Shown: in pieces, positions 6,458-33,990 of the stretch
Position numbering within the stretch: position 1 is the stretch's first letter
How the letters are laid out: every line of letters starts with the position of its first letter
From: Oryzomonas sagensis
GTDB lineage: Bacteria > Desulfobacterota > Desulfuromonadia > Geobacterales > Pseudopelobacteraceae
Length of the DNA: 64,000 bases
Reading direction: 5' to 3'
Assembly (NCBI RefSeq): GCF_008802355.1
Contig: NZ_VZRA01000004.1
Location: forward strand, 62,001-126,000
The notes under the pieces: generated by a model
The model's database searches: none
Told to the model about the DNA's origin: nothing
What the model saw: the letters and a program-made list of their open reading frames with translations, nothing else
Position numbers and translations under genes: made by a program

Positions 6458-6499
<42 letters not shown>

Positions 6500-16621: not shown

Positions 16622-16648
16622 CACTTCATCCCTCTCTAAAACCGGTGG

Positions 16649-17850: not shown

Positions 17851-18213
17851 TTATTTACTCAGAAACCCATCAAAAGTCCTCGGCTGCGAATTTCCTTTCC
17901 CAGCCCCCGGCGCCTGCCGCCGTTCTATTTTTCCCACCTCACCCTCACCAGAAACCGCACGAAAACCCTCACCACGCCCACTGCCAACTCCACTCGAATC
18001 CTCGGCATTCCTGCTTGCCGGAAATCCCCTCCTTTTCGTCAATTTTGCCGGGGCCCCGACGATCATCTGCAACGCGCGGCAACCCTCCTCGGAACGGAGA
18101 AAGGATGACAGGGCGGCCCCTACCAATCCCGCCATCTGCCGACGGGCTTGGGCTGCTTTGAGGGCATCAATTACGACGACATCATTGCTATGCAGGCGGA
18201 TTACAAACTCCAT
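17851..18213 (-). CDS. parR: ParR-like partition adaptor protein
   Basis: 120 residues, encoded 2 bp after the ParM stop. The first 50 residues (EFVIRLHSNDVVVIDALKAA...MAGLVGAALSSFLRSEEG) have a ribbon-helix-helix look, as in ParR/StbB. The remaining Gly/Arg-rich tail is flexible and ends DGFLSK, comparable to the C-terminal peptide by which ParR caps ParM filaments. The size and gene order (centromere, parM, parR) match type II partition. Assignment rests mostly on context because ParR proteins diverge strongly. Confidence 0.65.
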   Translation of the reverse strand: MEFVIRLHSNDVVVIDALKAAQARRQMAGLVGAALSSFLRSEEGCRALQMIVGAPAKLTKRRGFPASRNAEDSSGVGSGRGEGFRAVSGEGEVGKIERRQAPGAGKGNSQPRTFDGFLSK

Positions 18214-18215
18214 CG

Positions 18216-19124
18216 TTAAGCCGCCTCGCTGCCGCGCAGAAATTCAAGGAAACCTCGGGCATTGGCGAAAACTGGATCGGGCAGAACAAGCTGGGGAATG
18301 CGGTTGTCAGAATTGAGACCGATGTTTGCAAAATGGACCGCTCCGCCGCCGAAATAAGCGACCTGACTGATGGGATTGGCAATTGATACAAACCCCCTCA
18401 TATCTTCAATGATCTCGTCGAGGAGAACTTTGCAGTATTCCTCCGCGGCTGCGTTGATTTCCGGTGTCAGATCGTGGCGGTCCAGGCCAGCCTGGATGAA
18501 TCCCAGTTCGGCAATTTTTGCGAGCTCGACGGGGGTTGTGGCGAGGCCGGATGTGAATGAAGTGATTCGCGGCGCCAGGTGATTTTCCACCATTTGGCAG
18601 ACGCCACGTTTATACAGAGTTTTACTGGCGACGACCGCGCCGCGGCGGGGGTCAAACAGGGTGACAATCACTGTGTTGTGACCGATATCAATCCCGAGCA
18701 ACAGTCCACCCTGATGAATCTGGCTGAGGTCGATCGATTTGAGACCTCCCAGCCCCTGCGGCAGAACCGTCACGCTGCCTACACGATCAGAAATAAGCGT
18801 GCGCTGCAGAGTCTCAATTGCCCCGCCTGCTCCTTGCTGGTCCTCCCAAAACTGAGCCGGTAGGCCAACTGCGAGATCAACCGGGATCGTGGCGTCCACC
18901 CCGACAGTGTCCAAGGCCGAGTTCACGAAAGCGGGGTAGTATTCGACGAGGTGCTGGGGGGTGCGGAGATATGCGACACCACCGGGGTGGTTGAGTGCGT
19001 CATCACCGACCAGGACGCGGCCGGCAGAATGCTGGTACACGCTCAGGATACGGTATTTAATATCATCGTCTGTCATGATTTTCGCTGACGAAAACCCCAG
19101 ATCGACTACAAATGTTTGTTTCAT
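18216..19124 (-). CDS. parM: ParM/StbA-like actin-type plasmid segregation ATPase
   Basis: 302 residues with the actin/Hsp70 nucleotide-fold signatures in order: phosphate 1 FVVDLGFSSAK (about 5-15), connect region, phosphate 2 LLLGIDIGHNTVIV (about 144-157), and adenosine motif VAYFGGGAVHF (about 265). ParM filaments push plasmid copies apart. Its presence implies that the element spends time as a circular, segregating plasmid, or needs protection from loss after excision. Transcription starts from a promoter repeat shared with two other operons (19158-19204). Confidence 0.85.
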   Translation of the reverse strand: MKQTFVVDLGFSSAKIMTDDDIKYRILSVYQHSAGRVLVGDDALNHPGGVAYLRTPQHLVEYYPAFVNSALDTVGVDATIPVDLAVGLPAQFWEDQQGAGGAIETLQRTLISDRVGSVTVLPQGLGGLKSIDLSQIHQGGLLLGIDIGHNTVIVTLFDPRRGAVVASKTLYKRGVCQMVENHLAPRITSFTSGLATTPVELAKIAELGFIQAGLDRHDLTPEINAAAEEYCKVLLDEIIEDMRGFVSIANPISQVAYFGGGAVHFANIGLNSDNRIPQLVLPDPVFANARGFLEFLRGSEAA

Positions 19125-19157
19125 TTTTATTAGCCCCTTTTGTCAGTGTTTTTTTGC

Positions 19158-19204
19158 CCTCTAATACAAAGAGGTTTTTCGACCCCTTCAATTTGCAAAA
19201 AAAA
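19158..19204 (-). promoter_or_regulatory. Shared promoter/operator repeat, copy 1 (parM operon)
   Basis: Read on the minus strand it is TTTTTTGCAAATTGAAGGGG-TCGAAAAACCTCTTTG plus TATTAGAGG, 36 bases identical to copies at 28308-28359 and 31884-31935. It contains AAGGGGT-cgaaaa-ACCTCTT and CCTCT-N7-AGAGG inverted repeats and ends about 34 bases before the parM start. Confidence 0.85.
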
Positions 19205-19226
19205 TATCGCGGCTGCAAAAATAATC

Positions 19227-19390
19227 AGTACACCGCCCGGTACACCGTTAAGTGTACTAATCAATGTACGAGTGATCTGTTTGCCGAAATTAAATGTATG
19301 ATATCAGGTGGATGTATTGTTTGTGCGCGATGGTAGTTGGGTGTGGGTAGTGTGCTGATTGGTGTACTGAGTAGTACACCAATCAGCACA
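19227..19390. other. parC-like centromere: phased RGTACACC boxes and an 18-bp palindrome
   Basis: The 8-mer RGTACACC occurs at 19227, 19239 and, inverted, 19251: an exact 12-bp period. A second pair, inverted then direct, sits at 19361 and 19373, again 12 bp apart, inside a perfect 18-bp inverted repeat (19351-19368 / 19373-19390, spacer GAGT). This arrangement upstream of parM matches the repeat arrays bound by ParR. Confidence 0.75.
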
Positions 19391-19489
19391 TGTTGTGATT
19401 TATGTCTGGCGGCATTACACAGGGGCGCTTGACAGATGTGGCGACAAATCATATGATTTGTCGTAACATCTTATATTGGGAGGATTTTT

Positions 19490-20290
19490 ATGAGTGCTGA
19501 ATGGGGGAGGAGACTTCGTGTCCTGCGGATCCTTGCCGGGTTTTCGCAGGAGATAATCGCAAAAAACGTTGGGACGTCTCTGAGCACATATACGCAATGG
19601 GAGACAAAAGGCCGTCAACCCCGCGGCACCGACCTGCTTGAACGCCTAACCGGGAATATAGGAGTCCGACTTGAGGTTTTAAACGGACGGCCATTTAGCC
19701 AAACTGATATAGTCCTCTGGATCCCCTATGATCAGGAAAAGTCCGACCTCATGGGGCAGACTGATCTGCTACTCATGGATGTGCTGCCTGGCTTACTTGG
19801 GAGTGGGTCATCAATAATAAAACTTGAGCTGGGTACTACAGCGCTTTATTCGATCAATCAACGGATACTGATTATGCCTACAGCCTCGATGGTAGGTTCT
19901 ATTCAGGCTGCTTTGGAAAAATGTGGGGTAATTGAGACGGTAGGGTCCCTGGCGATGCCCGGTACGTCTAAGCCCAGCTATAATTATCTTGAAAAGGCAT
20001 TACAACTCGATCTAATTACCCCAGATGCAGCTAAAATACTCCATTCACGGCTTTCTGCACATCTCATCAGGATACTCCCACAAGAGTACGATTATATTTC
20101 TGTGGCCGGTTGGAGCCTCGCTGAGCAGTTTCCAGGTTTGGAGCCTGGGGATGTTAAGCGCTTTGCAAAAAGCTTCGCCGATTTTATTTACAATGCGGAC
20201 GATGTGGGGGGGTGTGACTACGACTACAATGAGACAGTGACCGGCCTAGCCAACGAATTGGTCACGGCCTATAATTCAAAAATTAAATAA
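19490..20290 (+). CDS. XRE-family transcriptional regulator (copy 2)
   Basis: 266 residues; Cro/CI helix-turn-helix at residues about 7-60 (LRVLRILAGFSQEIIAKNVGTSLSTYTQWE). It shares domain layout with the regulator at 6649: HTH, spacer, a WIPY motif, a leucine-rich segment, and an LGTTALYSINQRILIM strand set matching LGAVFLLGANKKHLII. The two are therefore paralogues or relatives acquired together. It precedes a small HTH gene in the same direction and is followed by a terminator. It likely governs the replication/transfer operon downstream. Confidence 0.7.
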   Translation: MSAEWGRRLRVLRILAGFSQEIIAKNVGTSLSTYTQWETKGRQPRGTDLLERLTGNIGVRLEVLNGRPFSQTDIVLWIPYDQEKSDLMGQTDLLLMDVLPGLLGSGSSIIKLELGTTALYSINQRILIMPTASMVGSIQAALEKCGVIETVGSLAMPGTSKPSYNYLEKALQLDLITPDAAKILHSRLSAHLIRILPQEYDYISVAGWSLAEQFPGLEPGDVKRFAKSFADFIYNADDVGGCDYDYNETVTGLANELVTAYNSKIK

Positions 20291-20316
20291 ATTAAGTTAC
20301 ATATGCATCTCTTATA

Positions 20317-20350
20317 AAAGGCTGGCCTTGAAGGTCGGCCTTTTTATTTT
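20317..20350 (+). terminator. Terminator after the second XRE regulator
   Basis: The stem AGGCTGGCCTT-ga-AGGTCGGCCT (with one G-T pair) is followed by TTTTTATTTT at 20341-20350. It separates the regulator from the downstream promoter. Confidence 0.8.
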
Positions 20351-20378
20351 GTTATTCATACTCGCAACGACTTATCGT

Positions 20379-20407
20379 TTGACAAATAAAATGATTTGGG
20401 ATAATTT
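20379..20407 (+). promoter_or_regulatory. Strong promoter of the HTH/replication/relaxase operon
   Basis: TTGACA (20379-20384), 17 bp, TAATTT (20402-20407). The overlapping AACGA-ctta-TCGTT inverted repeat at 20366-20379 abuts the -35 box and could be the operator of the upstream XRE protein. Confidence 0.75.
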
Positions 20408-20435
20408 AAAATAAAACGACAAGGGGAGGGGCAAT

Positions 20436-20633
20436 ATGACGAACCCAAATAATAAGCAATCAACTGAAAATAAAGAGTTTTTGAAGGCTGGGCAGGTAAT
20501 GAAACGGCTCAACATATGCAGAAATACTCTCTGTACCTGGTCAAAAACAATCTTACCGCCGACAGTGGTGATCAACGGGCAGGGTCGTTGGTCAGCAGAT
20601 TCTATAGATTTGTTTATGTCGGGAAAGTCGTAG
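20436..20633 (+). CDS. Small helix-turn-helix protein, excisionase/AlpA-like
   Basis: This 65-residue protein has EFLKAGQVMKRLNICRNTLCTW, a MerR/AlpA-type helix-turn-helix, followed by GRWSADSIDLFM, the closing helix that in AlpA-like proteins ends with a short hydrophobic stretch. GGGGAGGGG precedes the start. The pairing with an XRE regulator repeats the arrangement at 6649-7829. Likely regulator or recombination directionality factor. Confidence 0.7.
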   Translation: MTNPNNKQSTENKEFLKAGQVMKRLNICRNTLCTWSKTILPPTVVINGQGRWSADSIDLFMSGKS

Positions 20634-20655
20634 CGACTTATATGATGTTACGAAT

Positions 20656-20682
20656 AAAATGGACACCCAACTGATATGGATA
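20656..20682 (+). promoter_or_regulatory. 27-bp shared motif, copy B
   Basis: Matches 7575-7601 at 24 of 27 positions (AAAATGGACACC..ACTGATAT.GATA). It lies between the small HTH gene and the sigma-like gene, whereas copy A lies upstream of an HTH gene. Confidence 0.6.
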
Positions 20683-20737
20683 TTGAAGGGTTAATTCCGG
20701 CCTGAACCCAGGGCCAACGACCAAAAGGAGATCGAAT

Positions 20738-21340
20738 ATGAATATAGAGATTGAGGCGGGGGCAGTTGAAACTGGGGTACATCATGAGGCCTGGCTGGCA
20801 TGGATGACAATCGAGAAAATAGTCCGCCGTCACATCGGCTACAAAAATGACTCGGACGGTGGAGTAATCGATGATGAGGATGATTGCTTGGGTTGGATAT
20901 GCGAGAGGTTTATTGCAGGTTACAAGCCTGGGATGTTAATGGCCGAATATATCAGCTACTGCAAACTGCTTACGAAGGATTACCAACGTAAAGAGCGCGT
21001 ACGCAAGAGGTACGCACAGCTGAGTGAAACCGGTGATGACAGCGATCTGTACTGTCTCACCAGCGCAGCCGGGGAACCCTCGATCAACGACCACAATGCA
21101 GCTGAGATAGCCATAGATGCCGAAAGTACTGCCGCTCTCCTGCTGCAGCTGGGTTACCTGAGCGAGCCCGAGTACTGCGCGTATCTTGACCGGATTATGT
21201 ACGAGGTCGAGGGGGTTGACCGGACGCACGGTACTGATTGGCGGACAATCGAAGCCAAGATTGAGAGGTTTCGGTCGGATTTTCGTCGATCTGAGACCCT
21301 CGGCGTGCCCCTACGCGGGTCCAAAAGAGGCCGGAAATAA
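20738..21340 (+). CDS. Sigma-70-like protein, possible region-2 fold
   Basis: 200 residues. The segment DCLGWICERFIAGYKPG..MAEYISYCKLLTKDYQRKERVRKRY resembles sigma-70 region 2 (a loading helix, a YxPG turn, then a basic helix ending with arginines). A C-terminal stretch could correspond to region 4 but lacks a clear HTH. I therefore call it sigma-like, not a proven sigma factor. It is followed without a gap (TAATG) by a replication-type gene. If real, it may direct transcription of the element's transfer genes from their non-standard shared promoter. Confidence 0.4.
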   Translation: MNIEIEAGAVETGVHHEAWLAWMTIEKIVRRHIGYKNDSDGGVIDDEDDCLGWICERFIAGYKPGMLMAEYISYCKLLTKDYQRKERVRKRYAQLSETGDDSDLYCLTSAAGEPSINDHNAAEIAIDAESTAALLLQLGYLSEPEYCAYLDRIMYEVEGVDRTHGTDWRTIEAKIERFRSDFRRSETLGVPLRGSKRGRK

Positions 21341-22647
21341 TGACAAAGCCATCCTCCAAAACCTCCTCAACGAGTGATAATGGTCGTGTTTATTACATTA
21401 TTACCCCTCTCGGTGACCTTGAGGGATCGCACTGGCGCGGTATCCGCCGGCTGCCGGATGGGCCTGCGGTTATCGTCATAGGTCTCAGGCTCCGCAATAT
21501 GGCCGCAGAGGTCAATCAGGGGGGGCGGCTGGTCCACCTGACCGGCGAACCGATGTCGTTGCAGGATATCGCACGGGCCCTGGATGAACCACTGGAACTT
21601 ATGCAGTACTCGACATCTATATTGGCGAAATATGGCCTTGCTGACGGCAACGACGACCTTGGCTGGACTATTACGGATCCAGTGGTACTCAAACACGTCA
21701 GCCGGGCACTACCAGGCAAATCCACTAAATTGATCGCCAGCCCTCCTAAATTAGTCCTGGATAGGGGAGCAGAAGAGGAGAAAACAGAAGATCGCGAACG
21801 GCGCGAGGCTCGCAACCGGAAACGCCTTGAGCGCTATCGTTCCCAATGGGGTTGTGAACCCCCCGAAATTATCTGGTCGGTGACGACTGCAGTCACAAAT
21901 CGTGACAAGCCTGTGACCGGAATTGTGACTAGTGAATGTCACGCGCCTTTGCAATATACCGAAAATACGACTAAAAACGGTGTGACTATAGATTATAGGG
22001 GTATAGGTGTAGGTATAGATGCAGAGACAGCAGCAGGAGAATGTCACGAAACCGCTGCTGCTTCTTCGCCTTCGGCTTTTCTAGATACTCAACCCCAAAA
22101 CCCGGTTGATGAAAGAACGCCAGTATCCTCTATTCCGGTACAGGTTTCCGTTCTCCCCCCAGAGATCGAGACTCTAATCTCCAAACTGCCCCTAAAACAC
22201 CAATCAGGGGCAAAAGGCGGTGCCGTGGCCGGCTTGGCCAACGGCGCCCCAGTGGCTGTCGTCCTCGACTGTCTCCGCCGGCTCTCTGCAAAGCTCCAAC
22301 GCGGTGACTCTGCTGTGTCCACTGCTCGTGGCTGGCTCAACTCAGCCATCACCGGGGCCGTCGCCGAAGATGCAGAAATGGCGGAGACAAAATCTCAGCA
22401 ACATGCAGCGACAGCCGAGCGCCAGCTGCGCGAAGCCGAAGCCGCAGAACGCGAGCGACAGGCGGACCTCCGCCGGCAGGCTTTTCTGCTCGCCAGCTGG
22501 GAATCGCTTGGGCTTGCTGATCAACAGTCTATCGAGTCGGAAGCCCGTGCAAAAATGTCTCTCTACAACCCCGATCCATCTTCGTCGATCCTCAAGGTGA
22601 CCTGTCTCGACATACTTCAACAGCGCTACCAGCTCTCCGCCGCATAG
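21340..22647 (+). CDS. Phage-type replisome-organiser-like replication protein
   Basis: 435 residues. The first 120 residues (VYYIITPLGDLEGSHWRGIR, VIVIGLRLRNMAAE, PMSLQDIARALDEP, a winged-helix pattern) look like the N-terminal domain of phage replisome organisers and DnaD-like initiators. These recruit the replicative helicase. A charged, poorly conserved middle and an Ala/Glu/Gln-rich helical C-terminus follow. Together with parMR it suggests the element can replicate autonomously. The start shares one base with the preceding stop. The domain call is by pattern and could be only a related winged helix. Confidence 0.5.
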   Translation: MTKPSSKTSSTSDNGRVYYIITPLGDLEGSHWRGIRRLPDGPAVIVIGLRLRNMAAEVNQGGRLVHLTGEPMSLQDIARALDEPLELMQYSTSILAKYGLADGNDDLGWTITDPVVLKHVSRALPGKSTKLIASPPKLVLDRGAEEEKTEDRERREARNRKRLERYRSQWGCEPPEIIWSVTTAVTNRDKPVTGIVTSECHAPLQYTENTTKNGVTIDYRGIGVGIDAETAAGECHETAAASSPSAFLDTQPQNPVDERTPVSSIPVQVSVLPPEIETLISKLPLKHQSGAKGGAVAGLANGAPVAVVLDCLRRLSAKLQRGDSAVSTARGWLNSAITGAVAEDAEMAETKSQQHAATAERQLREAEAAERERQADLRRQAFLLASWESLGLADQQSIESEARAKMSLYNPDPSSSILKVTCLDILQQRYQLSAA

Positions 22648-22659
22648 AAAGGAAATTTT

Positions 22660-25600
22660 ATGCTCTCCGTTTCTACCCCTAAATCCTCTCAAGCCATTCA
22701 AGCCTATTTCGAGAAGGATGATTATTACTTGAAGGGCGCTGAAACCTCTCAATGGGTTGGCTCCGGTGCTGAGTCATTGGGCCTCTCCGGGCCGGTCTCG
22801 AAAGAGGATTTCAAGGCCTTGACCGAAGGATATTCCCCCTCGGGGGATCAGCTCGTTAAACCGAAGATTACGAAAGACAAAGAGACTGGCGAAAAGATAG
22901 AGGAACATCGCGCCGGCAACGATCTGACATTCAGCGCCCCCAAGTCTGTTTCCATTGCGTACGCCGCCGGGGTACCAGGCATGAAAGAGGCTCATGACGC
23001 CGCCATGGACGCCATGTGCTCGTACCTCGAAAAGTATTACAGTCACGCTCGGACCCCTGAGGGGTTCGCGTCGGGTTCTTTGGTCGCCGCCAAATTCGAT
23101 CACGCCACCTCGCGGGCTGTAGATCCGCAGTTGCACTCGCACCTGTTTGGGCTCAATGTTACGCAAACAGAGGACGGCCAGTGGCGGGCCAATGAACCTA
23201 TCAACATTTTCAAAGATCAGAAGGTACTCGGGGCGCTTTACCGGCAAGTGCTGGCAAACCAGTTGATGAAGATGGGGTATGAAATCCGGTGGACCGATCG
23301 TGAACAAAATCTTTTCGAACTGAAAGCCGTGCCTCAAAATGTGATTGCCACTTTTAGCCAACGCCGCGAAGAAATTGAAGCAAAAGTTGAGAAGTGGAAA
23401 GAGTCAGGAAAATATGACCAGCTCAAGGGTAAGGGATTGACTGACGCGCAGATTTGGGAAAAAGCCACACTCGCCACTAGGGCCGCGAAAGATAAGAATC
23501 TTACAAAAGAAATGGTGTCGGAAATCTGGGAAAAAGTGTTTGCATCCCTGGGGCTGTCGAGCAAGAGCTTTGAACAGTCCGTGTCTGGGTCGCGGCTTGA
23601 AACTCCCGCCCTGGCCCCTGCCGATGAACGGGCAGAATCGATCATAAAAATAGCTGAACAGGCCGTGTCGTTCCATAACAACAAAGAGGCGGTTATCGAT
23701 CTGGCTCAGGTAATCAAAACCTGCTGCCAACTGTCGGCCGGTCAACACTCCCTTAGGGAGATTGTGGCCGCGGTGCAGGCCTCCGCTATCGAGCTAGGCG
23801 ACGTGGCGCGAAACCAGGGGCGTGTGAAATATACCACTCCGGAAATGATCCAAATTGAGCAAAACAATAAGACCATGGCTGAGTCCCTCGGGGGCACCTT
23901 TAAATCAATCACCTCGAAAGAGGAAGTGGAGCAATATCTTGATCACCTGAAAGCTACGGAACATATAGACCTGTCAAAAGGTCAACGGGATATGGTTGTG
24001 CAGGAACTTACGAACGGGAACGGCCTCAATGTAGCCAATGGTGACCCTGGGACCGGCAAGACTTATGCCCTCGGGATCATCACGCGATTTGATAAAGAAG
24101 TCCTCCTGCCTTCCGGCCGTGAACACGTCGTCTGGAATGTCGGTTTCACCGGGCGTGCTGCGGCGGAGATGGCGGCCAAGACAGGCGGCGAAAGTTATAC
24201 AACGGATTCTTTCCTTAATCGCCTGGAGTCCGGGAAGATTAAGCTCGGCGAACAGAAAGATGGCGTCCGCCGGCAAGAGGTAATCCGGGTCGATGAAGCC
24301 TCCTACGAAAGCGCCCGCCAGATAAATCATCTGCTCCGGGTTGTGAAGGATGCTCAAGGGAATGGGGCTACCATAAAAATGTCCCTGCAAGGGGATCTCA
24401 AACAACGCCTGTCTATCGCCGCCGGCCGGGCATTTCAGCAAATGAAAGAGATAACCCATAAGTTCGGCGCTTATATTGAGATGAAAGAGATTATACGCCA
24501 GTCCATTGCCTCCGGCCTCCGGCCGGTTGCCACTAAGCTGAACGATACCTCCCTCCCTATCGCACAACGTACCCTTGAAGCCCTGGGGATGATTGAAAAT
24601 CAAAACCGCATTGTGGAGATAAAAGACCGGGCGGGTCTGGTGAAAGCGACGGTCGCCGAATACCTGAACTATAGCCAAATGGACAACCCGGATAAACCCG
24701 GTCAAAAAGCTACCTCCATTGTCGTCTGCACCACAAACGCAGAAGTGCAGGAACTCAATAAAGCCATTCGACAAGAGCTGGTCGCCTCCGGGAAACTCGA
24801 AGAGGGCAGCAAGTTCAAGGTATACAACACGGCCTCCGTCAACGTCATGGCAAGTTCTTATAGGACCGGCCAAAAAGTCATGTTCTCAGGGTACCGTGAC
24901 GACGATACCCGCAAGCAAACTCAGTTCCGGAATATCCCCCTGAATACCCCTGGCCTGGTCAAAGAGATTAACGCTGAAAAGAACATGGTGACTATCCAGT
25001 ACGAAATGACCGGGCGTGGCGGGTCAAAGATTGTTGCCGAAGAATTCTCTGCGGCTGACCTGGCCCTGAATGTGTCAGTATACAACCTCAACGAAAAATT
25101 GTTTGCCGTAGGCGATAGGGTAATGAACCTGCTTAACGGCCGGTTCCGGAATGGAGAAATTATCCCTACGACTGATAAACAGGCGCACGAGGTCAAAAAC
25201 GGCGATATCGGCACTATAAAGGCTGTCAATGACGGAGTGGCAACGATACTCTTTAACGAAGGCGAGTCAAGCCAAAGAACCGTCAAAATGGCCCTCTCAC
25301 GGGCGCATATCGACCACGCCTACGCGGCGACTGACGCGAAACTACAAGGGGCAACGTTGGATTTTGGCGTTATATTCGCCGCAATAAAAGAAGGCGTCAA
25401 GAGCATGCTCAGTTACCAGGGGGAAAACGTCGCCCTGACGCGCTTCCGCCATGATCTGAAACTGCTCACAAATAGCCTCAAGGGCCTCAAAGATGAAATC
25501 AAAACCGAGCTGAAAAAAACATCTACCCTGGATTATAAAGAGAACCAAATGGTCTGGCCGGAAAAGGCCCGGGCCGCTGAAAAGGGAACTGAAAAGGAAC

Positions 25601-28173
25601 TGCCCCCTGGGGTTGCAGAAGCCGCCGAAGTGGAAGCCGCCGCCGCGTCTATCGGTAACGATGTTGCCGAAGTGGCCCGGGAGAATCACATCTTTGAACA
25701 GTCCATCGAGCACCAGGAAGCAGCTCTTGAAAAGATACTGAAAGAGGTTGAACGGCTTGAGAATCTGGATGAGCAGATATCGGCGGCCGTGGAGCCTCAA
25801 CAGGCGGAGCCTGCCGCTGCCGGCAAAGCGGAGCCGCCTGAAAAGTCTCAACCTGATGCCGCAATAGATTCGGTCTCTTCTGCCGAAGTCAAAGACCACG
25901 CAGGGGCCACTGGCCCCACTGAACCGCCTGGCCCTGGTGTAGAAGAACCTGGGAGACAATACACTGACAAGCAGGCCGACCCTCCTCAGACCGTCGCCGT
26001 CCCTGAGCAAACCGCCGAACGGGTGATTAATGCCATGCCGGACTTTTCCGGCGAGGCAGGCCGCTGGACCGGCGTTGGTGAACGGTTCGGACACCGGGCC
26101 TCCGCCGCCCCTCTTGACTTCTTTACTCACCAGGGCCGGGACGGTCACGAATATTCGATTAAATACGCTGGGGATTTCGGGTTCTCTACGTCAACCCGGT
26201 CCACCGTCGACACCGCCCTGTCGAAGCGCTCAACAGAGATTATCCGCGGCGATCATGGAAAAACTGTGAAAACCACCCATTCCCGGGGAGACTGGATTTC
26301 GCGGTCGTCTGAATCCTCCGGCGCGGTTCACCGCCACAAAACCAGGGATGAACAGGGCAATGTCATTCAAGCCGAAACCGTCCGGTTTTCCGAGCGGTCG
26401 CAACAACTCTTCGGGGGCCTGTATCGGTCCAGCACGCGCACGGAAAGGCTGCATGACGGCTCAAAGCGGCTAATCAAGTCAACTTCCTGGGGCAACAAGG
26501 TCAAGGGCACCACAACCACTTATCATAAAGATGGCCGGATCGTAGAGACGGAGTGGACCGGCACCAGGCGGGAAAACGGGGATCTCCAGATCAACGAGTC
26601 GACCACAAAAACTAAATTTGATGCCTCCAAGACGAAAATGGAAACCGGTAATTTCCTCGATATAGGAGTCCGCGCGATAATCCAAACAATCACTTTCCTC
26701 AAAGACCCCAATGAATACAGGGATCTCCGCAATCAACTGACAAGAGACCATGCTCTCAAGATCACAACTCAGCGGTATCAGCAAAACGGCTCTGTCCTGG
26801 GAAAAACGGAGATATTTACAAAATCCCAGCTCCGTGCCGACAAGGCCTGGGCCAGAAGTACAGATAAAAGTATGTCGTGCCTGACCAGGGAATATGATGC
26901 TGACACTAAGGTATTCAAGATTGCCAATTTCGTACGGGACCCTGAGGGGAATGCAAGCGGCACTGCAAAATATATCACTGAGGCCGGGAGAGTTGACAAA
27001 ACTACTGATTGGCAAAAGTTCGCCAACGACGCCATGAAGGGCCATACCCAGCACTTTGACGGCGTGGGGAAGCTCACAAAGGATACCACCTGGGAAAAGG
27101 ATGCCGCCGGGGAAATGAAGGGTGATACGAAGCATTTTGTCCGGGAAGACTACAATGGCGACAAGCTGACGGTGAATTACGCTACGAAAGAATCGGAATG
27201 GATGAAAAACACTGACAATGCCATGAAGGGTGAAACAAAACACCTGAATGAAGATGGGGCCGCCACTAAGACATCCTCCTGGGAAAAAGATGCTGATGAC
27301 AACATGAGCGGGAAAACTCAGCATTTCGCCGAGAATGGCGAGTTGAACAAAGAGACTGCCTGGGCGAAAGATGACACGGAAATGGCGGGCGAAACCCGCC
27401 GCTACGCCAACGATGAACTGCGGTCATTCTCTGCATGGACGCGGGATCTGGGCGAAGATGGAAAATTTGAGGTGGATTTCTCTGAATCGTACCTTCCGGG
27501 ATTTTTCAAGGATGCGGAGGAAAATGCCGGGAAAGAGGTGCGGCCGGAGCCTGATAAAACCGCTGCCCTGGAAACCCCAGAGCAGTCACACGAGCAGACC
27601 CACGAGATAGACCAGGATCAGCCTGAACCCCCTCCCTTGGCCGAGATAGACAACGAGGTTGCCGCTGCAGCCGATATTGTCTCCTCTCCTGAGATTCCAC
27701 CGGCCGAAGGGGTGGCCGTAGACAAGGATTTTGCCCAGGTTGAAGCCCCTGGGAATGACCTGGAGGACGAGAATGAACATGACCTCGACGAACAACACAC
27801 GACCGAAAATCTGTCATTGCAAGAATCTGAGTTGGAGATTGACGGCAACAGCCAAGAGACTGTGACCCTTAGTATCCCAGAGGCTATCGACGCTGCCCTG
27901 GACACAATTGCACACATTCAAGCCGAGATCCTCACCGGTGAGATAGGACAGCTAACCGAGGAAATTGCGCAGTCTGCAGAAGCTGGAATGGCTAAGCTGC
28001 TTGAAGAAGCGATTGAAAAGCTTAACACAGAAATTTCCAGCAACCAGGCCCAGGCGACTCTCTCTGATGTTGCTGACAAACTCGGTCCCGAGGTACAGCA
28101 GGCTGAACAGCAGCACGAACAACATGAGGCCCGGGAACGAGATGTTGAGAGGGAAATGGATTTCGAGATATAA
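22660..28173 (+). CDS. traI: MobF conjugative relaxase-helicase (TraI/TrwC) with repeat-rich C-terminal extension
   Basis: 1,837 residues. The N-terminal relaxase has the catalytic tyrosines in DYYLKG (Y22, Y23), the RAGNDLTFSAPKSVS motif (about 84-98) and the metal histidines H148, H159, H161 (PQLHSHLFGLN), nearly the TrwC numbering. A superfamily-1 helicase follows, with Walker A GDPGTGKTYA near residue 462 and a RecD2-like C-terminal motif HAYAATDAKLQG near 885. After a Pro/Glu/Ala linker, residues about 1150-1620 hold an unusual domain of beta repeats, including W.K.AD..M.GKT.HF units. A Glu-rich helical tail ends the protein. It nicks oriT, stays attached to the transferred strand and unwinds DNA. 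AAAGGAAATTTT precedes the start. Confidence 0.9.
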   Translation: MLSVSTPKSSQAIQAYFEKDDYYLKGAETSQWVGSGAESLGLSGPVSKEDFKALTEGYSPSGDQLVKPKITKDKETGEKIEEHRAGNDLTFSAPKSVSIAYAAGVPGMKEAHDAAMDAMCSYLEKYYSHARTPEGFASGSLVAAKFDHATSRAVDPQLHSHLFGLNVTQTEDGQWRANEPINIFKDQKVLGALYRQVLANQLMKMGYEIRWTDREQNLFELKAVPQNVIATFSQRREEIEAKVEKWKESGKYDQLKGKGLTDAQIWEKATLATRAAKDKNLTKEMVSEIWEKVFASLGLSSKSFEQSVSGSRLETPALAPADERAESIIKIAEQAVSFHNNKEAVIDLAQVIKTCCQLSAGQHSLREIVAAVQASAIELGDVARNQGRVKYTTPEMIQIEQNNKTMAESLGGTFKSITSKEEVEQYLDHLKATEHIDLSKGQRDMVVQELTNGNGLNVANGDPGTGKTYALGIITRFDKEVLLPSGREHVVWNVGFTGRAAAEMAAKTGGESYTTDSFLNRLESGKIKLGEQKDGVRRQEVIRVDEASYESARQINHLLRVVKDAQGNGATIKMSLQGDLKQRLSIAAGRAFQQMKEITHKFGAYIEMKEIIRQSIASGLRPVATKLNDTSLPIAQRTLEALGMIENQNRIVEIKDRAGLVKATVAEYLNYSQMDNPDKPGQKATSIVVCTTNAEVQELNKAIRQELVASGKLEEGSKFKVYNTASVNVMASSYRTGQKVMFSGYRDDDTRKQTQFRNIPLNTPGLVKEINAEKNMVTIQYEMTGRGGSKIVAEEFSAADLALNVSVYNLNEKLFAVGDRVMNLLNGRFRNGEIIPTTDKQAHEVKNGDIGTIKAVNDGVATILFNEGESSQRTVKMALSRAHIDHAYAATDAKLQGATLDFGVIFAAIKEGVKSMLSYQGENVALTRFRHDLKLLTNSLKGLKDEIKTELKKTSTLDYKENQMVWPEKARAAEKGTEKELPPGVAEAAEVEAAAASIGNDVAEVARENHIFEQSIEHQEAALEKILKEVERLENLDEQISAAVEPQQAEPAAAGKAEPPEKSQPDAAIDSVSSAEVKDHAGATGPTEPPGPGVEEPGRQYTDKQADPPQTVAVPEQTAERVINAMPDFSGEAGRWTGVGERFGHRASAAPLDFFTHQGRDGHEYSIKYAGDFGFSTSTRSTVDTALSKRSTEIIRGDHGKTVKTTHSRGDWISRSSESSGAVHRHKTRDEQGNVIQAETVRFSERSQQLFGGLYRSSTRTERLHDGSKRLIKSTSWGNKVKGTTTTYHKDGRIVETEWTGTRRENGDLQINESTTKTKFDASKTKMETGNFLDIGVRAIIQTITFLKDPNEYRDLRNQLTRDHALKITTQRYQQNGSVLGKTEIFTKSQLRADKAWARSTDKSMSCLTREYDADTKVFKIANFVRDPEGNASGTAKYITEAGRVDKTTDWQKFANDAMKGHTQHFDGVGKLTKDTTWEKDAAGEMKGDTKHFVREDYNGDKLTVNYATKESEWMKNTDNAMKGETKHLNEDGAATKTSSWEKDADDNMSGKTQHFAENGELNKETAWAKDDTEMAGETRRYANDELRSFSAWTRDLGEDGKFEVDFSESYLPGFFKDAEENAGKEVRPEPDKTAALETPEQSHEQTHEIDQDQPEPPPLAEIDNEVAAAADIVSSPEIPPAEGVAVDKDFAQVEAPGNDLEDENEHDLDEQHTTENLSLQESELEIDGNSQETVTLSIPEAIDAALDTIAHIQAEILTGEIGQLTEEIAQSAEAGMAKLLEEAIEKLNTEISSNQAQATLSDVADKLGPEVQQAEQQHEQHEARERDVEREMDFEI

Positions 28174-28210
28174 CCTTTCGTACTTCCTTCCACATTACCA
28201 ACTTTACCCA

Positions 28211-28240
28211 GCCCCGGCCGTCCGCCGGGGCTTCTTCTTT
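28211..28240 (+). terminator. Terminator after traI
   Basis: GCCCCGGC-cgtcc-GCCGGGGC (28211-28231) followed by a T-rich tract. The same GCCCCGG/CCGGGGC stem ends the next operon (31835-31864), and a similar hairpin follows 33908. Confidence 0.8.
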
Positions 28241-28307
28241 CTGCGGTCATGATTTGTTCACTTTTCTCTCCATTGCTTTTCGCAATATTTCATTCTTTTT
28301 CATTCCA

Positions 28308-28359
28308 TAAAGATTTTTTGCAAATTGAAGGGGTCGAAAAACCTCTTTGAATATAGAGG
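28308..28359 (+). promoter_or_regulatory. Shared promoter/operator repeat, copy 2
   Basis: It is identical to copy 3 over 42 bases from TAAAGATTTTTTGCAAATTG to CCTCTTTG; then AATATAGAGG. The AAGGGGT/ACCTCTT and CCTCT/AGAGG inverted repeats are preserved while the loop between the latter varies, which suggests a structural or protein-binding constraint. The next start codon is 24 bases downstream. Confidence 0.85.
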
Positions 28360-28382
28360 ACAAAATTTCGGAGGAGAAATTT

Positions 28383-28850
28383 ATGGCAGCTACACGTAAC
28401 TCAAACTTTGCAGCCGGCGCCGGGATATCTGTCGGCTCGGACGGAGACATGATGGTTTTTGATCACCTTGTCGGTCGTCACCTGTTCCGCCTCGGTCTGG
28501 CCCTGGCGTGCGAAGATTTGCAAGCTTCAATGCGCTTGTCCTCAACTTTTTTCGGGCTTATTTATTCACTCTCTCTCCGCAAAAAATATCCGGTCAAAAG
28601 AATCAGAGAAGCTCTGAAGAGTTATCTGATTTCGTTGATTTCCTGCGAAGCCGCCGCCGGTAGCGATGATTTTAGCGAAATCGGCGGCGCTGCCGAATGC
28701 CTGATTGGACACTATGGGGTTTCCGGTGAGCTGTTGGATGAAACATTTGCAGACGCCGCTGTCCAAAACCCAATTTTCGGGGGGTGGGTGAGTGGGAAAG
28801 CAGCTATGGAAGTGACTAAAGACGGAATGAAGGGAGAAGTTGAACAATGA
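28383..28850 (+). CDS. Hypothetical protein, first gene of an envelope operon
   Basis: 155 residues, no signal peptide; mixed helical content (GRHLFRLGLALACEDLQASM). GGAGGAG precedes the ATG at 28383. It overlaps the next gene by 4 bp, so it is translationally coupled to a membrane protein. Not recognised. Being the first gene after the shared promoter, it may be regulatory or scaffold-like. Confidence 0.6.
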   Translation: MAATRNSNFAAGAGISVGSDGDMMVFDHLVGRHLFRLGLALACEDLQASMRLSSTFFGLIYSLSLRKKYPVKRIREALKSYLISLISCEAAAGSDDFSEIGGAAECLIGHYGVSGELLDETFADAAVQNPIFGGWVSGKAAMEVTKDGMKGEVEQ

Positions 28851-29164
28851 ACTGGCTAACCAAAATACTGGCCCCGTCACTGATTGTAATTTTGGCCATC
28901 GTTTATTTTTCGTATCAAAAAAACGACAACGAAATGACTCAGGATAGTGCGAAATTTGACCGGGATTGGAACGAGAGTATGCAGCATTTTGCAAAATCTC
29001 CGGGCGAAAAGAAAAAATATGCGGCAAGGGCAACCATGGCGCAAAGCGATTATAGCTCTGCCAGAGCGGAGGGGGCCAAGCATAAGCAAAGGGTTGATAA
29101 TGCAGGGGATAACCTTAACGATGCCCTGGATGATCTCAAAAAAGAGAACGGGGGTGGGAAGTGA
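28847..29164 (+). CDS. Small single-pass membrane protein
   Basis: 105 residues. An N-terminal hydrophobic helix (ILAPSLIVILAIVYFSY) acts as signal anchor. The remainder is highly charged and helical, rich in Lys, Asp and Asn. Overlaps of 4 bp on both sides bind it into one operon with the flanking genes. Unknown function. Confidence 0.6.
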   Translation: MNWLTKILAPSLIVILAIVYFSYQKNDNEMTQDSAKFDRDWNESMQHFAKSPGEKKKYAARATMAQSDYSSARAEGAKHKQRVDNAGDNLNDALDDLKKENGGGK

Positions 29165-30177
29165 AAAATATCATCCTTTTTGTCCTACTGGCCCTGGCGG
29201 TGCCCCTGGCGGCCTCCGCCCTGGATCTCTCGGTTGACAGCAGTAAGGACAAGTCGATCTCGCGGGAACGGGCCTTATCAATCCGGAAAAGCCTGGAGGA
29301 TCGGCACTCCGATACCACAAGCCACTCCCACGACACGAGCAACAGCACGACAAACCGCCGTGCGCGCAACATCAACCGGGACACCTCCAATACGGTATCA
29401 ATCCCCATGATAGCCCTGCTCCCGGATCTGGGCTTTAAACCCCTGCTTCCCGTGGATCTCGGGCTCGCCGCCCCGATTGAAAAGGGCGGCTGGATCACAG
29501 TACATGTACAGGAGTACTACGCCAAAGCGTGGGCCTCCTACGCCCCTGTAGAGACCGTCACAGACCCGGCGCCGGTCAAAGCCTACATTGATCTGGTGGC
29601 ACGCAAGTCCCTGATTGCCGCTCAAGCGCAACTCTACCTCATGGATCGGCTCGGCCGCCTGGCCGGGAAAAAAGCCGTCACAAAGAACGGCCGGAAAACC
29701 CTTGATGCGTCGGTGCTGGTTGGCATCAATGATCTCCCTCCCCTGGCCGCTCAGGCTTACGCAGACGCGGAAAAAAATGTGTCTGCGCCGTATCTCTTGG
29801 GAATATGGGAGAGATACCAGAAAGAGATGGCGGGCGGGAATTGTCGCCTGTCCGGGAATCATGGGATTTCCTGCGGCAACATCATAATCGAGCTGGACAA
29901 CCCGCCGCGGCTCGCCTTGGGGAACATCCCTCTCTACAACGGGTCCACGTTCGCTGGTGTGACAGGCGATGTGCGGGTGTCCTCGAGCGTCAGCCTGCAT
30001 GATGCCTACGAGCGGTCAAAAGTCGTGTCTGACGCGGATAGGCGGTCAACAGATGATATGGAAAGCAACGGAAATGCCTTTGAAGCTGCTATGAGCCGCC
30101 GTGAAACGCTGAATAAGAGCAAAGGGAATAAAATAAACATGGGGGTTGGCAAATTTGTGCCCGGGCCTTCACACTAA
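29161..30177 (+). CDS. Secreted protein, unknown, conjugation-associated
   Basis: 338 residues with a clear signal peptide (NIILFVLLALAVPLAASA, cleavage near residue 20). A Ser/Asp/Arg/His-rich low-complexity stretch (about 25-75) is followed by a folded domain containing QEYYAKAWASYAP and one CRLSGNHGISCG pair of cysteines that could form a disulphide. It starts with GTG overlapping the previous stop. I do not recognise the family. Export, operon position and the shared promoter with parM suggest an envelope function tied to the element's life cycle. Confidence 0.6.
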   Translation: MKNIILFVLLALAVPLAASALDLSVDSSKDKSISRERALSIRKSLEDRHSDTTSHSHDTSNSTTNRRARNINRDTSNTVSIPMIALLPDLGFKPLLPVDLGLAAPIEKGGWITVHVQEYYAKAWASYAPVETVTDPAPVKAYIDLVARKSLIAAQAQLYLMDRLGRLAGKKAVTKNGRKTLDASVLVGINDLPPLAAQAYADAEKNVSAPYLLGIWERYQKEMAGGNCRLSGNHGISCGNIIIELDNPPRLALGNIPLYNGSTFAGVTGDVRVSSSVSLHDAYERSKVVSDADRRSTDDMESNGNAFEAAMSRRETLNKSKGNKINMGVGKFVPGPSH

Positions 30178-30204
30178 AACTCAGTCCGTCACTGGAGGTG
30201 ACCA

Positions 30205-30912
30205 TTGAAAACCACAATTTTCGCTATTCTTCTTGCCATTGCCATTTCTTCCGCCGCTTTTGCTGGCTTCACCGTTCCGGTTTCTGATCAGAGTTTCGGT
30301 ATTTATAAAGAAAAATCCGAAGAATATCAGACTGGAAAAACCAAAATTGGCAACATGCATCAGTCGATTAAATCATCGGAATCTGGATACAATATTACCA
30401 TTGACTACAAGTATGACGATGGCAGGCAGACGCAGGAAAATTTTAATACCGATAAATCATTGGCTTTGAAATCGTTTGATATTTATATAAAAAGCAATGC
30501 TTTGATCTATTTTGGTGGAACAATAAAAGGTAACATACTGAATGTAAGAGAAGAAATAACAGAAGAAAAAGGCAAAAGATCCCTGGAGGACAATTTACAG
30601 ATCACGGATAAACTGTATCCGTTATCAGCTATAGCATTATACCTGTTAATGCATGAGGGGGTCCCTGAAAAAGAATTCCAGATATCAGTGTTAAACTCGG
30701 ATAACTCAACGTATTTTATGTCTCAAACTACGATAAGGCCTACCCGGATTGCTGTTTTAAGCGCCAATATATCAGGATATGATATTGGATATTCCCTCAG
30801 AAACGCAATGTGCACTCAGTTGTATTGCGATTTTCATATTGAGGTTGATAAAAACGGGAATACTATAAAAATCATCAAAAATGGATTGATTTTTGAAGCT
30901 GAGAAGCCATAA
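30205..30912 (+). CDS. Secreted protein, unknown
   Basis: 235 residues beginning at a TTG codon with GGAGGTGA upstream. A signal peptide (TIFAILLAIAISSAAFA) precedes a mostly beta, Lys/Asn-rich domain. It is AT-rich relative to the gene before it, so it may have a separate origin. Third exported product of this operon. No family recognised. Confidence 0.6.
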   Translation: MKTTIFAILLAIAISSAAFAGFTVPVSDQSFGIYKEKSEEYQTGKTKIGNMHQSIKSSESGYNITIDYKYDDGRQTQENFNTDKSLALKSFDIYIKSNALIYFGGTIKGNILNVREEITEEKGKRSLEDNLQITDKLYPLSAIALYLLMHEGVPEKEFQISVLNSDNSTYFMSQTTIRPTRIAVLSANISGYDIGYSLRNAMCTQLYCDFHIEVDKNGNTIKIIKNGLIFEAEKP

Positions 30913-30931
30913 CAGAAAAGGAGGCGCTTAA

Positions 30932-31798
30932 ATGAAACTGTATATTTTATCGATAATTGCCGTAATCATCACAACGGCTTTTTCTACTTTCGCAGCTCCG
31001 CCGAATTTTTTTACATTAGACCAGGTTCCGAAACAGTCTAAACCTTTATCTTCGGGGCCATTAAGAGGCACTGATCTCCCGTCAGTATTTGTAGCTGATG
31101 CCCGGGCCAACGAAAAAAATATAAACAACCAATGTGATAATTTCAAAACTGCATACAACGATTATATTCAGTTCAATGGTTCAGGGCAGTCGAGGCACAA
31201 TTCTCCTGGTGAGAATATAGCCGCCGAGGAATACATGAATATGCAGCACAAAAGGTTCGGCGGGCAAGTACAGTCGCAATGGCAGTCGGTTCAGGGGAGC
31301 TGGCCTTCGGGTTTCAACCCACAGGTTTGTTCTGGGACTATGCCGACTAAGACCGGATCTTTTACAATGTCTGACGGCAAGTTACTGCGAAGTGAGGAAA
31401 TAACAGGCTGGGGCCGTTTTGATGCCACTTACGGTCCAAATCACAAATATCCCGTGCAGATAACGGTGTCAGACGGACGGAATAATGCGCTGACTGGCGT
31501 CAAGAATTCAGAAAATGAGCCGTTCATTGTCAGATCGGTTAATTTCGACTTTCTCAAATTGGACCCAATAACGCAATCGTATACAAGCAGATATGGTTCA
31601 TTTACAGCTTCTGGCAATGAGCTCGTTGACTATTTCAATGTAATAGAGAGGGATTGCCCGATATTGGATATTGATAAAAATAGATGCCACAGTGCCCTGT
31701 CATGGTTCGGAATAATGCTTAAATACCCTGATGATAAAACGAGACAATTCACTATTGATAATCTGATCCAGTTTGCAAAAGCAAAAAACACACGATAA
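30932..31798 (+). CDS. Secreted protein, unknown, with several cysteines
   Basis: 288 residues; signal peptide ILSIIAVIITTAFSTFA. The mature part has cysteines at NNQCDNF, QVCSG, RDCPI and NRCHS, an even number compatible with two disulphides in the periplasm. AAAAGGAGGCG precedes the ATG. Last gene of the operon, followed by a strong terminator. The family is not recognised. Confidence 0.6.
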   Translation: MKLYILSIIAVIITTAFSTFAAPPNFFTLDQVPKQSKPLSSGPLRGTDLPSVFVADARANEKNINNQCDNFKTAYNDYIQFNGSGQSRHNSPGENIAAEEYMNMQHKRFGGQVQSQWQSVQGSWPSGFNPQVCSGTMPTKTGSFTMSDGKLLRSEEITGWGRFDATYGPNHKYPVQITVSDGRNNALTGVKNSENEPFIVRSVNFDFLKLDPITQSYTSRYGSFTASGNELVDYFNVIERDCPILDIDKNRCHSALSWFGIMLKYPDDKTRQFTIDNLIQFAKAKNTR

Positions 31799-31834
31799 AC
31801 TCAGTAAACTAGAGAGCTACAAAGAAAACTACTC

Positions 31835-31864
31835 AAGCCCCGGCCTTCCACCGGGGCTTTTTTC
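31835..31864 (+). terminator. Terminator of the first envelope operon
   Basis: AAGCCCCGG-ccttcca-CCGGGGCTT with a T6 run at 31858-31863. Near-copy of the traI terminator stem. Confidence 0.88.
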
Positions 31865-31883
31865 ATTTCTATTTTTGCACCAC

Positions 31884-31935
31884 TAAAGATTTTTTGCAAA
31901 TTGAAGGGGTCGAAAAACCTCTTTGTATGTAGAGG
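31884..31935 (+). promoter_or_regulatory. Shared promoter/operator repeat, copy 3
   Basis: It is identical to copy 2 through CCTCTTTG, then TATGTAGAGG. It starts 20 bases after the terminator and ends 28 bases before the next ATG, so it must contain or directly regulate the promoter of the second envelope operon. Confidence 0.85.
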
Positions 31936-31962
31936 GAAAAAATATCTGAAGGAGGTCTCAAG

Positions 31963-32193
31963 ATGCTAAAGGCCGTAAGAAAAATAGAACATCCCCGCCG
32001 CGCTGTCGTCGGGGGTTGCAAAATACCCAGGATATCTAGAGGGGACAACACCCAGCGCTATTACGACGCTCACGTCCACGCATATCACAGCCTCCGCCGG
32101 CGGGCCCTGGAAACCGGGGACGAGCAATCAGCACAAATTGTTGCCGGATATGACGCGCTCATCAAGCATCTGCAGTCTCGCATCGGAAACTAA
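31963..32193 (+). CDS. Small basic hypothetical protein
   Basis: 76 residues, Arg/His-rich (RKIEHPRRAVVGGCKIPRIS...), helical C-terminus, no signal peptide. AAGGAGG precedes the start at good spacing. Like 28383, it is the cytoplasmic first gene of an operon of exported proteins. Unknown function. Confidence 0.55.
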   Translation: MLKAVRKIEHPRRAVVGGCKIPRISRGDNTQRYYDAHVHAYHSLRRRALETGDEQSAQIVAGYDALIKHLQSRIGN

Positions 32194-32214
32194 ACAAAAA
32201 GGAGCCCAAAGACC

Positions 32215-32634
32215 ATGCGGAAAATCATCATGATCGTAGCAATTCTAACAATGACGGCAATGGCAGCGCATGCCGGCACCGGTGCAACAGATATTACTCC
32301 TCACCTTACTAGGTGCGATGCGGTGGCAGTCATCAAGACACCGATTTGGCAGCGGCTGGCCACTGCATTTATCATCAGTGAGACAAAAGTTGTGAGGAAA
32401 ACAGAATTTGTTGAGACTTTCGGACTTTTGACTGTTGAGAGGGCAGAGGACTTTGCTTCCTCTTTTGCCGATAAAATACTGTCACAAAATTTATCGGAGA
32501 TCGAGCAGGGCAGGCTTTTTTGCACAGAAGATGGTAGCAAAAACGTTCTGTATATCGATTTTTATGGGAACGGAGAGAAACCGGTATTTTCGGGAAGGCT
32601 GTTGACTGATGTGGCAAGAGAAGAGAAGCGGTAA
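32215..32634 (+). CDS. Exported small protein, paralogue of the next gene
   Basis: 139 residues with signal peptide MRKIIMIVAILTMTAMAAHA. The mature part shares a pattern with the next gene: a cysteine soon after the start, P.W..(L/I)AT..(I/L)..E, a central E/D-rich helix, and a C-terminal C..(D/P). The two genes are adjacent and presumably arose by duplication. Function unknown. Confidence 0.6.
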   Translation: MRKIIMIVAILTMTAMAAHAGTGATDITPHLTRCDAVAVIKTPIWQRLATAFIISETKVVRKTEFVETFGLLTVERAEDFASSFADKILSQNLSEIEQGRLFCTEDGSKNVLYIDFYGNGEKPVFSGRLLTDVAREEKR

Positions 32635-32664
32635 CGCACGCCAATCGAGAAAGGAACACAAACC

Positions 32665-33111
32665 ATGCGGAAAATCATCGTAACAATCGTTGCAATCATC
32701 ACAATAGCAGCTGCGGCGCATGCGGAGCAGTCCAATGTGTACAAATGCTTCGGCGTGCAGGCTGTCGACCCGCCCGTCTGGAAAAAGATTGCAACCCTGG
32801 GGCTGGCAAGTGAACAGACCATTAACATCGACACGCAGTTCCTGGTTCCCGTCACCGTGTCTGGCCGCGATATCGAAGAGGCGATGGACGCCCAAAAGAT
32901 ACTCGCCACGGAGGCAATGAAACTGGATGCATCTCAAATTCGGGCCGCTCAAGTTACCTGCACTGGTCCCGCCGGCGATGTAATTCATCTCGCTTACGAT
33001 CGCGAACACATCGGTTTCCGGAGCCGATACCAGCCAGCCCCCGCGGCAGCGGCACTGGAGGCGGCCAAAACTCATGCTGGCACTGCTTACGATCAGGGGG
33101 TGTACCAGTGA
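32665..33111 (+). CDS. Exported small protein, paralogue of the preceding gene
   Basis: 148 residues; signal peptide MRKIIVTIVAIITIAAAAHA, nearly the same as its neighbour's. KCFGVQAVDPPVWKKIATLG parallels the RCDAVAVIKTPIWQRLATAF region of 32215. Two cysteines align between the pair. The C-terminal Ala-rich tail is unique. Unknown function. Confidence 0.6.
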   Translation: MRKIIVTIVAIITIAAAAHAEQSNVYKCFGVQAVDPPVWKKIATLGLASEQTINIDTQFLVPVTVSGRDIEEAMDAQKILATEAMKLDASQIRAAQVTCTGPAGDVIHLAYDREHIGFRSRYQPAPAAAALEAAKTHAGTAYDQGVYQ

Positions 33112-33161
33112 CCCTCAACACGCTCCGGTAAACAAATCATTCAACGAATGGAGAAAACATC

Positions 33162-33908: not shown

Positions 33909-33990
33909 CCCAACTATCACCTCAACCCCCGGCTCCGGCCGGGGGGGATTAACTATGCAAACCCGCGTGGGCGGAGAAGGAGTAACGAAC

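Follow-up and report, generated by a model that had tools for sequence, protein, structure and literature searches.

A 36-bp sequence, TTTTTTGCAAATTGAAGGGGTCGAAAAACCTCTTTG, occurs in three identical copies in a 64,000-nucleotide stretch of the genome of Oryzomonas sagensis (NZ_VZRA01000004.1; hereinafter the window, to which all positions refer unless prefixed with G000 or L), and each copy precedes a different operon of an integrated mobile element, namely the gene for the actin-like partition ATPase ParM and two operons for predicted exported proteins. We propose, with a probability of about 0.6, that this motif is a DNA-level promoter/operator shared by the three operons and read by a regulator other than the product of the open reading frame (ORF) at 20738, which the original prediction had put forward as a sigma-like protein. 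The central claim of that prediction, common control of partition and of a set of exported proteins, is still the best reading of the data, given an identical and private site, its orientation, its near-equal distances from the downstream genes and a parallel regulon in related elements.

Three identical copies in front of three operons

An exact search combined with direct reading of the sequence places the core at 19167-19202 on the minus strand and at 28314-28349 and 31890-31925 on the plus strand, with each copy directed towards its own downstream gene. In copies 2 and 3 the core is preceded by TAAAGA, which extends the identity to 42 bases, and these two copies are 93% alike over 58 nucleotides (nt); the similarity among the flanks of the copies drops to 3-7 matches in 10 positions just upstream and 4-8 in 10 just downstream of the core. 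The presence of the motif at three operons is borne out by these alignments, and so is the predicted constancy of AGAGG behind variable bases: the core is followed by TATT, AATAT and TATGT in copies 1, 2 and 3, respectively, i.e. by 4-5 variable bases, and then in all three by AGAGG, with a loop of 7, 8 and 8 nt between CCTCT and AGAGG. From the end of the core to the start codon there are 42 nt for parM, 33 nt for the first exported-protein operon (A) and 37 nt for the second (B).

The identity of the three copies is not attributable to chance, the probability of a repeated 36-mer being ~2.6e-12 under a crude uniform-base formula. In 104 kb (the window with 20 kb on either side), the next best match to the core is 23/36, where 15 first-order Markov controls reach 21-25, and a degenerate fourth copy above the control range was not found in this span.

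The partition locus has the type II ParMRC layout, with an actin-like ParM, an adjacent small parR candidate that shows weak local similarity only, and an upstream repeat array. The parM product is 51.7% identical to ParM of the Geobacter plasmid pSD and 50.3% identical to that of the Pelobacter plasmid pPRO1; the parR candidate has no Pfam match. Five GTACAC/GTGTAC words lie within 19228-19379, between parM and a divergent XRE-type gene, and the same words precede parM in pSD; this array likely represents the ParR sites (parC). The 36-bp motif sits between the parC-like array and parM, as a separate layer.

A site confined to a single element

The motif was sought at length outside its element. 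When at most 3 mismatches are allowed, a 24-mer taken from the core is present in 1 of the 277 genomes of the class, that of O. sagensis itself, with three copies there, and in 0 of the other 276. A BLAST search with 62 bases over 196 genomes returned, outside the source genome, only short and weak matches (best E 0.003); matches at E <= 1 come from 111 of the 195 other relatives and are all short. Of 10 such loci that were examined (L005-L009, L012-L015, L022), all but L007 coincide in part with a stop-to-stop frame of 100 codons or more; L005 and L007 represent a single chromosomal locus in two congeneric genomes, adjoining what by eye is an OmpH/Skp-like gene. On this inspection the matches, those at L005 and L007 included, were put down to chance. 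PLSDB contains no match to the motif at E 0.01. Several further candidates were rejected: exact 19-mer matches in 5 genome contigs and in 1 viral contig are not continued in the remainder of the motif, three viral contigs that contain an exact 17-mer agree at only 20-22/36 positions of the core, and the best scores of these three contigs and of 7 further stretches, 20-25/36, are no better than controls. A pattern comprising the right half of the motif and AGAGG was found in 0 viral contigs. In a same-genus element (G004), which has a related relaxase and coupling protein and encodes a distant homologue of ORF 29161, none of the repeats resembles the motif. The search of related elements proposed along with the original prediction recovered, in short, no copy of the 36-bp sequence; judged by sequence comparison, the site is private to this element and new to the collections searched.

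DNA site or RNA leader

The contention that no ordinary -35/-10 pair fits the three copies holds at the thresholds of a sigma70 scan, which yields 18 sigma70-like sites in 17000-36900 (17.6 expected), 0 of which overlap a motif copy. A sigma54 or sigma28 reading, tried by eye, fails to fit all three copies. Terminator-like hairpins precede copies 2 and 3 (Table 1), and given the proximity of the latter hairpin to copy 3, a promoter located wholly upstream of that copy would need to extend into the hairpin.

The explanation that comes closest to competing with a DNA site is an RNA leader, whereby the motif would lie in the 5' untranslated regions and CCUCUUU, which resembles an anti-Shine-Dalgarno sequence, would pair alternatively with GGGG, AGAGG or the ribosome-binding site, thus setting translation. 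Such a device would be in keeping with the position of every copy, ending 33-42 nt before a start codon, with the overlapping inverted repeats and with the retention of AGAGG while the loop varies. The location of the parC-like array upstream of the motif is compatible with it as well, considering that in parMRC of plasmid R1 the promoter is located in parC. However, the three leaders fold no better than shuffled sequences (z -0.73, -0.52 and -0.49), and in the lowest-energy fold of each, CCUCU pairs with an upstream GGGG and not with AGAGG; the functional CCTCT/AGAGG stem envisaged in the original prediction thus finds no support. Pairing with AGAGG is possible, but a perfect 5-bp stem with a loop of 4-9 nt is found in ~4% of random 26-mers, which makes the pairing alone weak evidence. 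Furthermore, the upstream T-run and TTGCAAATTG are conserved as much as the stems, little room is left for a promoter upstream of copy 3, Rfam at the gathering score yields no family at the motif copies (its sole match in the window is a c-di-GMP-I riboswitch elsewhere), and the three copies are too alike to show covariation. On these findings taken together, we prefer a DNA-level promoter/operator and regard the RNA leader as unlikely.

A parallel motif in related elements

Relatives of ParM are encoded in 39 of 391 genomes, including that of O. sagensis; loci were obtained for 29 of the other 38 genomes, and all 29 were read. The exact sequence ACCTKCCCCC lies 72-80 bp before the aligned ParM start in 23 of these 29 loci and, with at most one mismatch, 72-82 bp before it in 25, the loci that lack it being L043 (pPRO1), L061, L069 and L071. 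The C-run is followed after 4-7 nt by GATATT or GATTAT in 22 of the 23 exact loci and by GAGTAA in one.

In 11 regions around parM (394,871 bases, to which G052 and G062 contribute one 20-kb stretch each), ACCTKCCCCC occurs 23 times, compared to 0-4 times in 10 Markov controls. Nine occurrences precede parM, 7 precede an operon led by OmpA and containing DsbC and tra genes, 5 precede a gene that we take to be AlpA-like and that itself precedes TrfA (the rep operon), and 2 are elsewhere; positions in the L079-L095 regions include L081:15480, 15820 and 19574. Here OmpA and TrfA are Pfam matches, whereas DsbC and tra were named by reading the frames alongside the pPRO1 annotation. The tra and rep counts are independent; the parM count is not, as the regions were picked around this gene once the motif had been seen in front of it. 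An exact copy is lacking from the G117 and G098 regions, and in G174 neither of the two copies is accompanied by GATWAT.

By analogy, these conjugative elements of the relatives, which are of the F type, follow a like design in which the site has a different sequence. They share with the element of O. sagensis the ParM family, the place of the motif before parM, the presence of several operons with exported or transfer functions and the taxonomic class, but differ in that the motif is unrelated and that they carry tra genes, TrfA and a sigma-like gene, which were not found in the window element. By eye, pSD and pPRO1 (L040, L041) also have a common leader, GCACCAAATAATCT...TTAGGG.AGAGGG, directly before the OmpA-tra operon. 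No report of a sigma factor or a shared motif of ParM elements in Desulfuromonadia was found in the part of the literature that was searched, which makes this a weak indication.

The sigma-like gene of these elements encodes a protein of ~185 amino acids (aa) and is located upstream of parM in 10 of the 11 regions, as well as in pSD and pPRO1; it is not in the stretch fetched for G098. Two members of the family match Sigma70_r4 above the curated cut-off (E 3e-6 and 1.2e-5). An 11-row profile has 8 matches in PDB at E <= 0.01: 6 sigma chains, including one extracytoplasmic function (ECF) sigma factor, and 2 repeat proteins, one of which is the best match. The structural model (predicted local distance difference test score, pLDDT, 77.4; predicted template modelling score, pTM, 0.43) gives a Foldseek list headed by sigma factors, with one match at E <= 0.001 and TM-scores of ~0.3, which implies that the domains fit and their arrangement does not. 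The protein may read ACCTKCCCCC, with which its gene co-occurs; G117, however, has the gene but no exact copy of the motif, and pSD and pPRO1 have it although no repeated motif was detected in them.

Candidate regulators

Could the ORF at 20738-21340 be the counterpart of this gene, that is, a divergent sigma factor encoded by the element, with the motif as its promoter? The failure of any sigma70 pair to fit the copies at the thresholds of the scan and the sigma-like protein that related elements encode close to parM (10 of 11 regions), with its Sigma70_r4, PDB and Foldseek support, speak for such a factor, and by eye the product of ORF 20738 has acidic, ERF and RKxxRxR patterns that recall region 2. 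Homology, however, is not detectable: the protein has no Pfam match at a limit of E 10, no PHROG at 0.1 and no sigma match in PDB (one unrelated match), and its comparison to the profile of the relatives' sigma-like family gives an hhalign probability of 0.2%. Sigma70_r2 has no match on the contig of this ORF, all 5 matches in the genome being on contigs C1-C3. The single-sequence model (pLDDT 43.8) shows no confident fold, and three weak matches in 243 other genomes, the best of them in a frame that by eye resembles cytidylate kinase, are unconvincing. Thus, the sigma-like assignment of the original prediction finds no support in homology; the protein may be a very divergent sigma factor, and the reading in which it recognizes the motif strikes us as improbable.

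The XRE-type regulator divergent from parM is another candidate. Two observations pertain to these genes. An inverted repeat with two 19-nt arms (89%) at 19434-19471 lies directly before the XRE gene at 19490 and is perhaps its own operator. A second duplicated intergenic sequence, AAAATGGACACC..ACTGATAT.GATA, is present at 7575-7601 and 20656-20682 (89% over 27 nt), preceding an HTH_17 gene (7632-7829, beside the MmeI gene) and ORF 20738, respectively, and is possibly another shared site.

The proposed mechanism and its weak points

Under the hypothesis that we favor, the motif would act as a DNA-level promoter/operator recognized by one trans-acting regulator, not the product of ORF 20738, encoded either by the element or by an unknown conjugative helper. 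This regulator would switch parMR and the two exported-protein operons together, such that the excised form would be partitioned in the very state in which surface or transfer functions are expressed. We infer a transcription start inside the motif or just behind it, positive regulation and a single protein that reads all three copies. The least probable of the alternatives is that the copies stem from recent spread or conversion of a short sequence and regulate nothing. The identity over 36-42 bp, the far lower similarity outside it and the absence of copies from the other genomes searched might indicate this, but all three occupy short gaps ahead of operons, share one orientation and stand at nearly equal distances; the downstream genes are by eye not duplicates of each other, and AGAGG is retained past a gap of varying length.

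Several findings weigh against our hypothesis. The entire spacer is identical, unlike in a typical sigma promoter; 36 identical bases would also fit recent copying or an RNA leader; and the variable gap of 4-5 nt before AGAGG is ill-suited to a rigid dimer site. The motif is not homologous to ACCTKCCCCC, so the related elements support the hypothesis by analogy, and the 29 parM loci are not independent because many are close relatives of each other. Moreover, in pSD and pPRO1, which encode the closest ParM, 13 upstream regions each reveal no multi-operon motif, apart from one 13-bp match in pPRO1. As for known regulators of such systems, the FlhC family (PF05280) has 0 matches in the genome, in a search that did not extend to FlhD, and the KorA family (PF16509) has 0 matches at E <= 0.1, a search that is weakly controlled because none of 14 control genomes passes the cut-off.

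The element and its other genes

The element is bounded by a 41-bp direct repeat at 6458-6498 and G000:C4:131054-131094 (62,596 bp start to start). The tRNA-Gly(ccc) gene at the latter site, which a tyrosine integrase frame adjoins, lies beyond the window, and the window covers most of the 62.6-kb element, its own start consisting of chromosomal genes (guanylate kinase, RelA/SpoT, RidA family, threonine synthase). Besides the genes listed in Table 1, the cargo includes MmeI-type restriction and AbiE genes. No VirB4/TraC-type ATPase was found: the VirB4 (PF03135) and TraG-loop (PF19044) families have no match anywhere in the genome, whence the element appears mobilizable and not self-transmissible; with its integrase, tRNA attachment (att) repeats and relaxase and without a complete mating pore, it looks like an integrative mobilizable element. 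As no mating-pore ATPase was found, the regulator could come from a helper, in the way that AcaCD reaches SGI1.

Both exported-protein operons are inferred from gene spacing. In operon A, signal sequences recognized by eye begin ORFs 29161-30177, 30205-30912 and 30932-31798. PLSDB contains no homologues of ORFs 20738, 29161 and 30932, and no homologues of ORFs 20738 and 29161 were found in viral contigs.

Table 1. Features of the window discussed in the text
Feature	Position	Strand	Remarks
Left att site	6458..6498	+	41-bp direct repeat; second copy within the tRNA-Gly gene (5' part)
TrwB/TraD-type coupling protein	14726..16624	-	
parR candidate	17851..18213	-	N-terminus like that of the gene after parM in pPRO1, 35% over 51 aa
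parM, actin-like partition ATPase	18216..19124	-	weak Pfam matches below cut-off
Motif copy 1	19158..19202	-	core 19167-19202, AGAGG 19158-19162; precedes parM
parC-like array	19226..19390	.	5/14 of the window's GTACAC/GTGTAC words, 18-bp perfect inverted repeat
XRE-type regulator	19490..20290	+	divergent from parM; candidate regulator
ORF 20738	20738..21340	+	200 aa; called sigma-like in the original prediction
TrwC/MOBF relaxase-helicase	22660..28173	+	
Terminator-like hairpin	28210..28232	+	~76 bp before copy 2
Motif copy 2	28308..28359	+	core 28314-28349, AGAGG 28355-28359; precedes operon A
Exported-protein operon A	28383..31798	+	ORFs 28383-28850, 28847-29164, 29161-30177, 30205-30912, 30932-31798
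Terminator-like hairpin	31835..31859	+	~25 bp before copy 3
Motif copy 3	31884..31935	+	core 31890-31925, AGAGG 31931-31935; precedes operon B
Exported-protein operon B	31963..35427	+	ORFs 31963-32193, 32215-32634, 32665-33111 and the two below
Operon B ORF, Big_2	33162..33908	+	lipoprotein-like
Operon B ORF, PQQ_2	33955..35427	+	lipoprotein-like

Some further observations concern other parts of the element. The c-di-GMP-I riboswitch, at 40306-40388 on the minus strand, precedes a gene for a 949-aa protein with a C39-peptidase-like domain and 288-nt tandem repeats. Three adjacent calcineurin-like phosphoesterase genes at 51668-54229, with an SRAP gene and a PLD-like gene behind them, may form an island of defence or repair functions. 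Towards its right end, the element has genes for a LexA-like repressor (62750-63373) and a Y-family (IMS) polymerase (L074:450-1685), which make SOS control possible, and, beside the polymerase gene, a gene for a HEPN/Toprim-N protein (L074:1689-2918), a possible defence gene.

Comparison with known systems and implications

By analogy, the layout is of a known kind, comparable to the SetCD and AcaCD regulons. According to excerpts of the respective reports, srpM, srpR and int of the SXT/R391 elements are read from a promoter that depends exclusively on SetCD (PMC4489591), the SetCD boxes directly abut the -35 box on its upstream side, an arrangement that recalls class II activation (PMC4344509), and AcaCD boxes of IncA/C plasmids are found in unrelated mobilizable islands (PMC4207636). 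As far as these excerpts go, the likeness to SetCD of SXT/R391 and to AcaCD of IncA/C plasmids, with its boxes in SGI1 and MGIVmi1, comprises an integrative element, a single motif before several operons, that for ParM-type partition included, promoters that need, or in the window appear to need, more than sigma70, and mobilizable islands that may bear boxes for the activator of a helper. The differences are that the motif is another one, that this genome has no FlhC match and that the SetCD and AcaCD sites have been mapped by chromatin immunoprecipitation with exonuclease digestion (ChIP-exo), whereas activation at the site in the window is a proposal. A plasmid-encoded sigma factor with its own promoter consensus, SigN (ZpdN) of the Bacillus subtilis plasmid pBS32, has been described (PMC6751061), and its consensus precedes many plasmid operons, in this case in a Gram-positive plasmid with prophage-like genes. 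The KorA/KorB/TrbA system of IncP-1 plasmids offers shared operators that coordinate plasmid core functions; these regulators are repressors, and KorA has no match here.

A broader scenario is possible, although we put it forward tentatively and with considerable doubt: integrative and conjugative elements (ICEs) of Desulfuromonadia might each possess a private control site, and many of them a dedicated sigma-like factor, that would jointly fire partition, replication and the mating apparatus, with unrelated sites in different elements. The element of O. sagensis would then be one of the mobilizable kind, and its new site would possibly have its regulator encoded by a hitherto unknown helper.

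If our hypothesis is correct, segregation would be coupled to transfer by one switch, as in the SXT/R391 ICEs, though the regulator would not belong to the FlhC family; among the relatives, this switch would perhaps use an element-encoded sigma factor. In practical terms, the motif provides a handle that names the regulated operons and could be used to fish out the regulator or the helper element, and it predicts that the uncharacterized exported proteins of operons A and B belong to the active or transfer state of the element.

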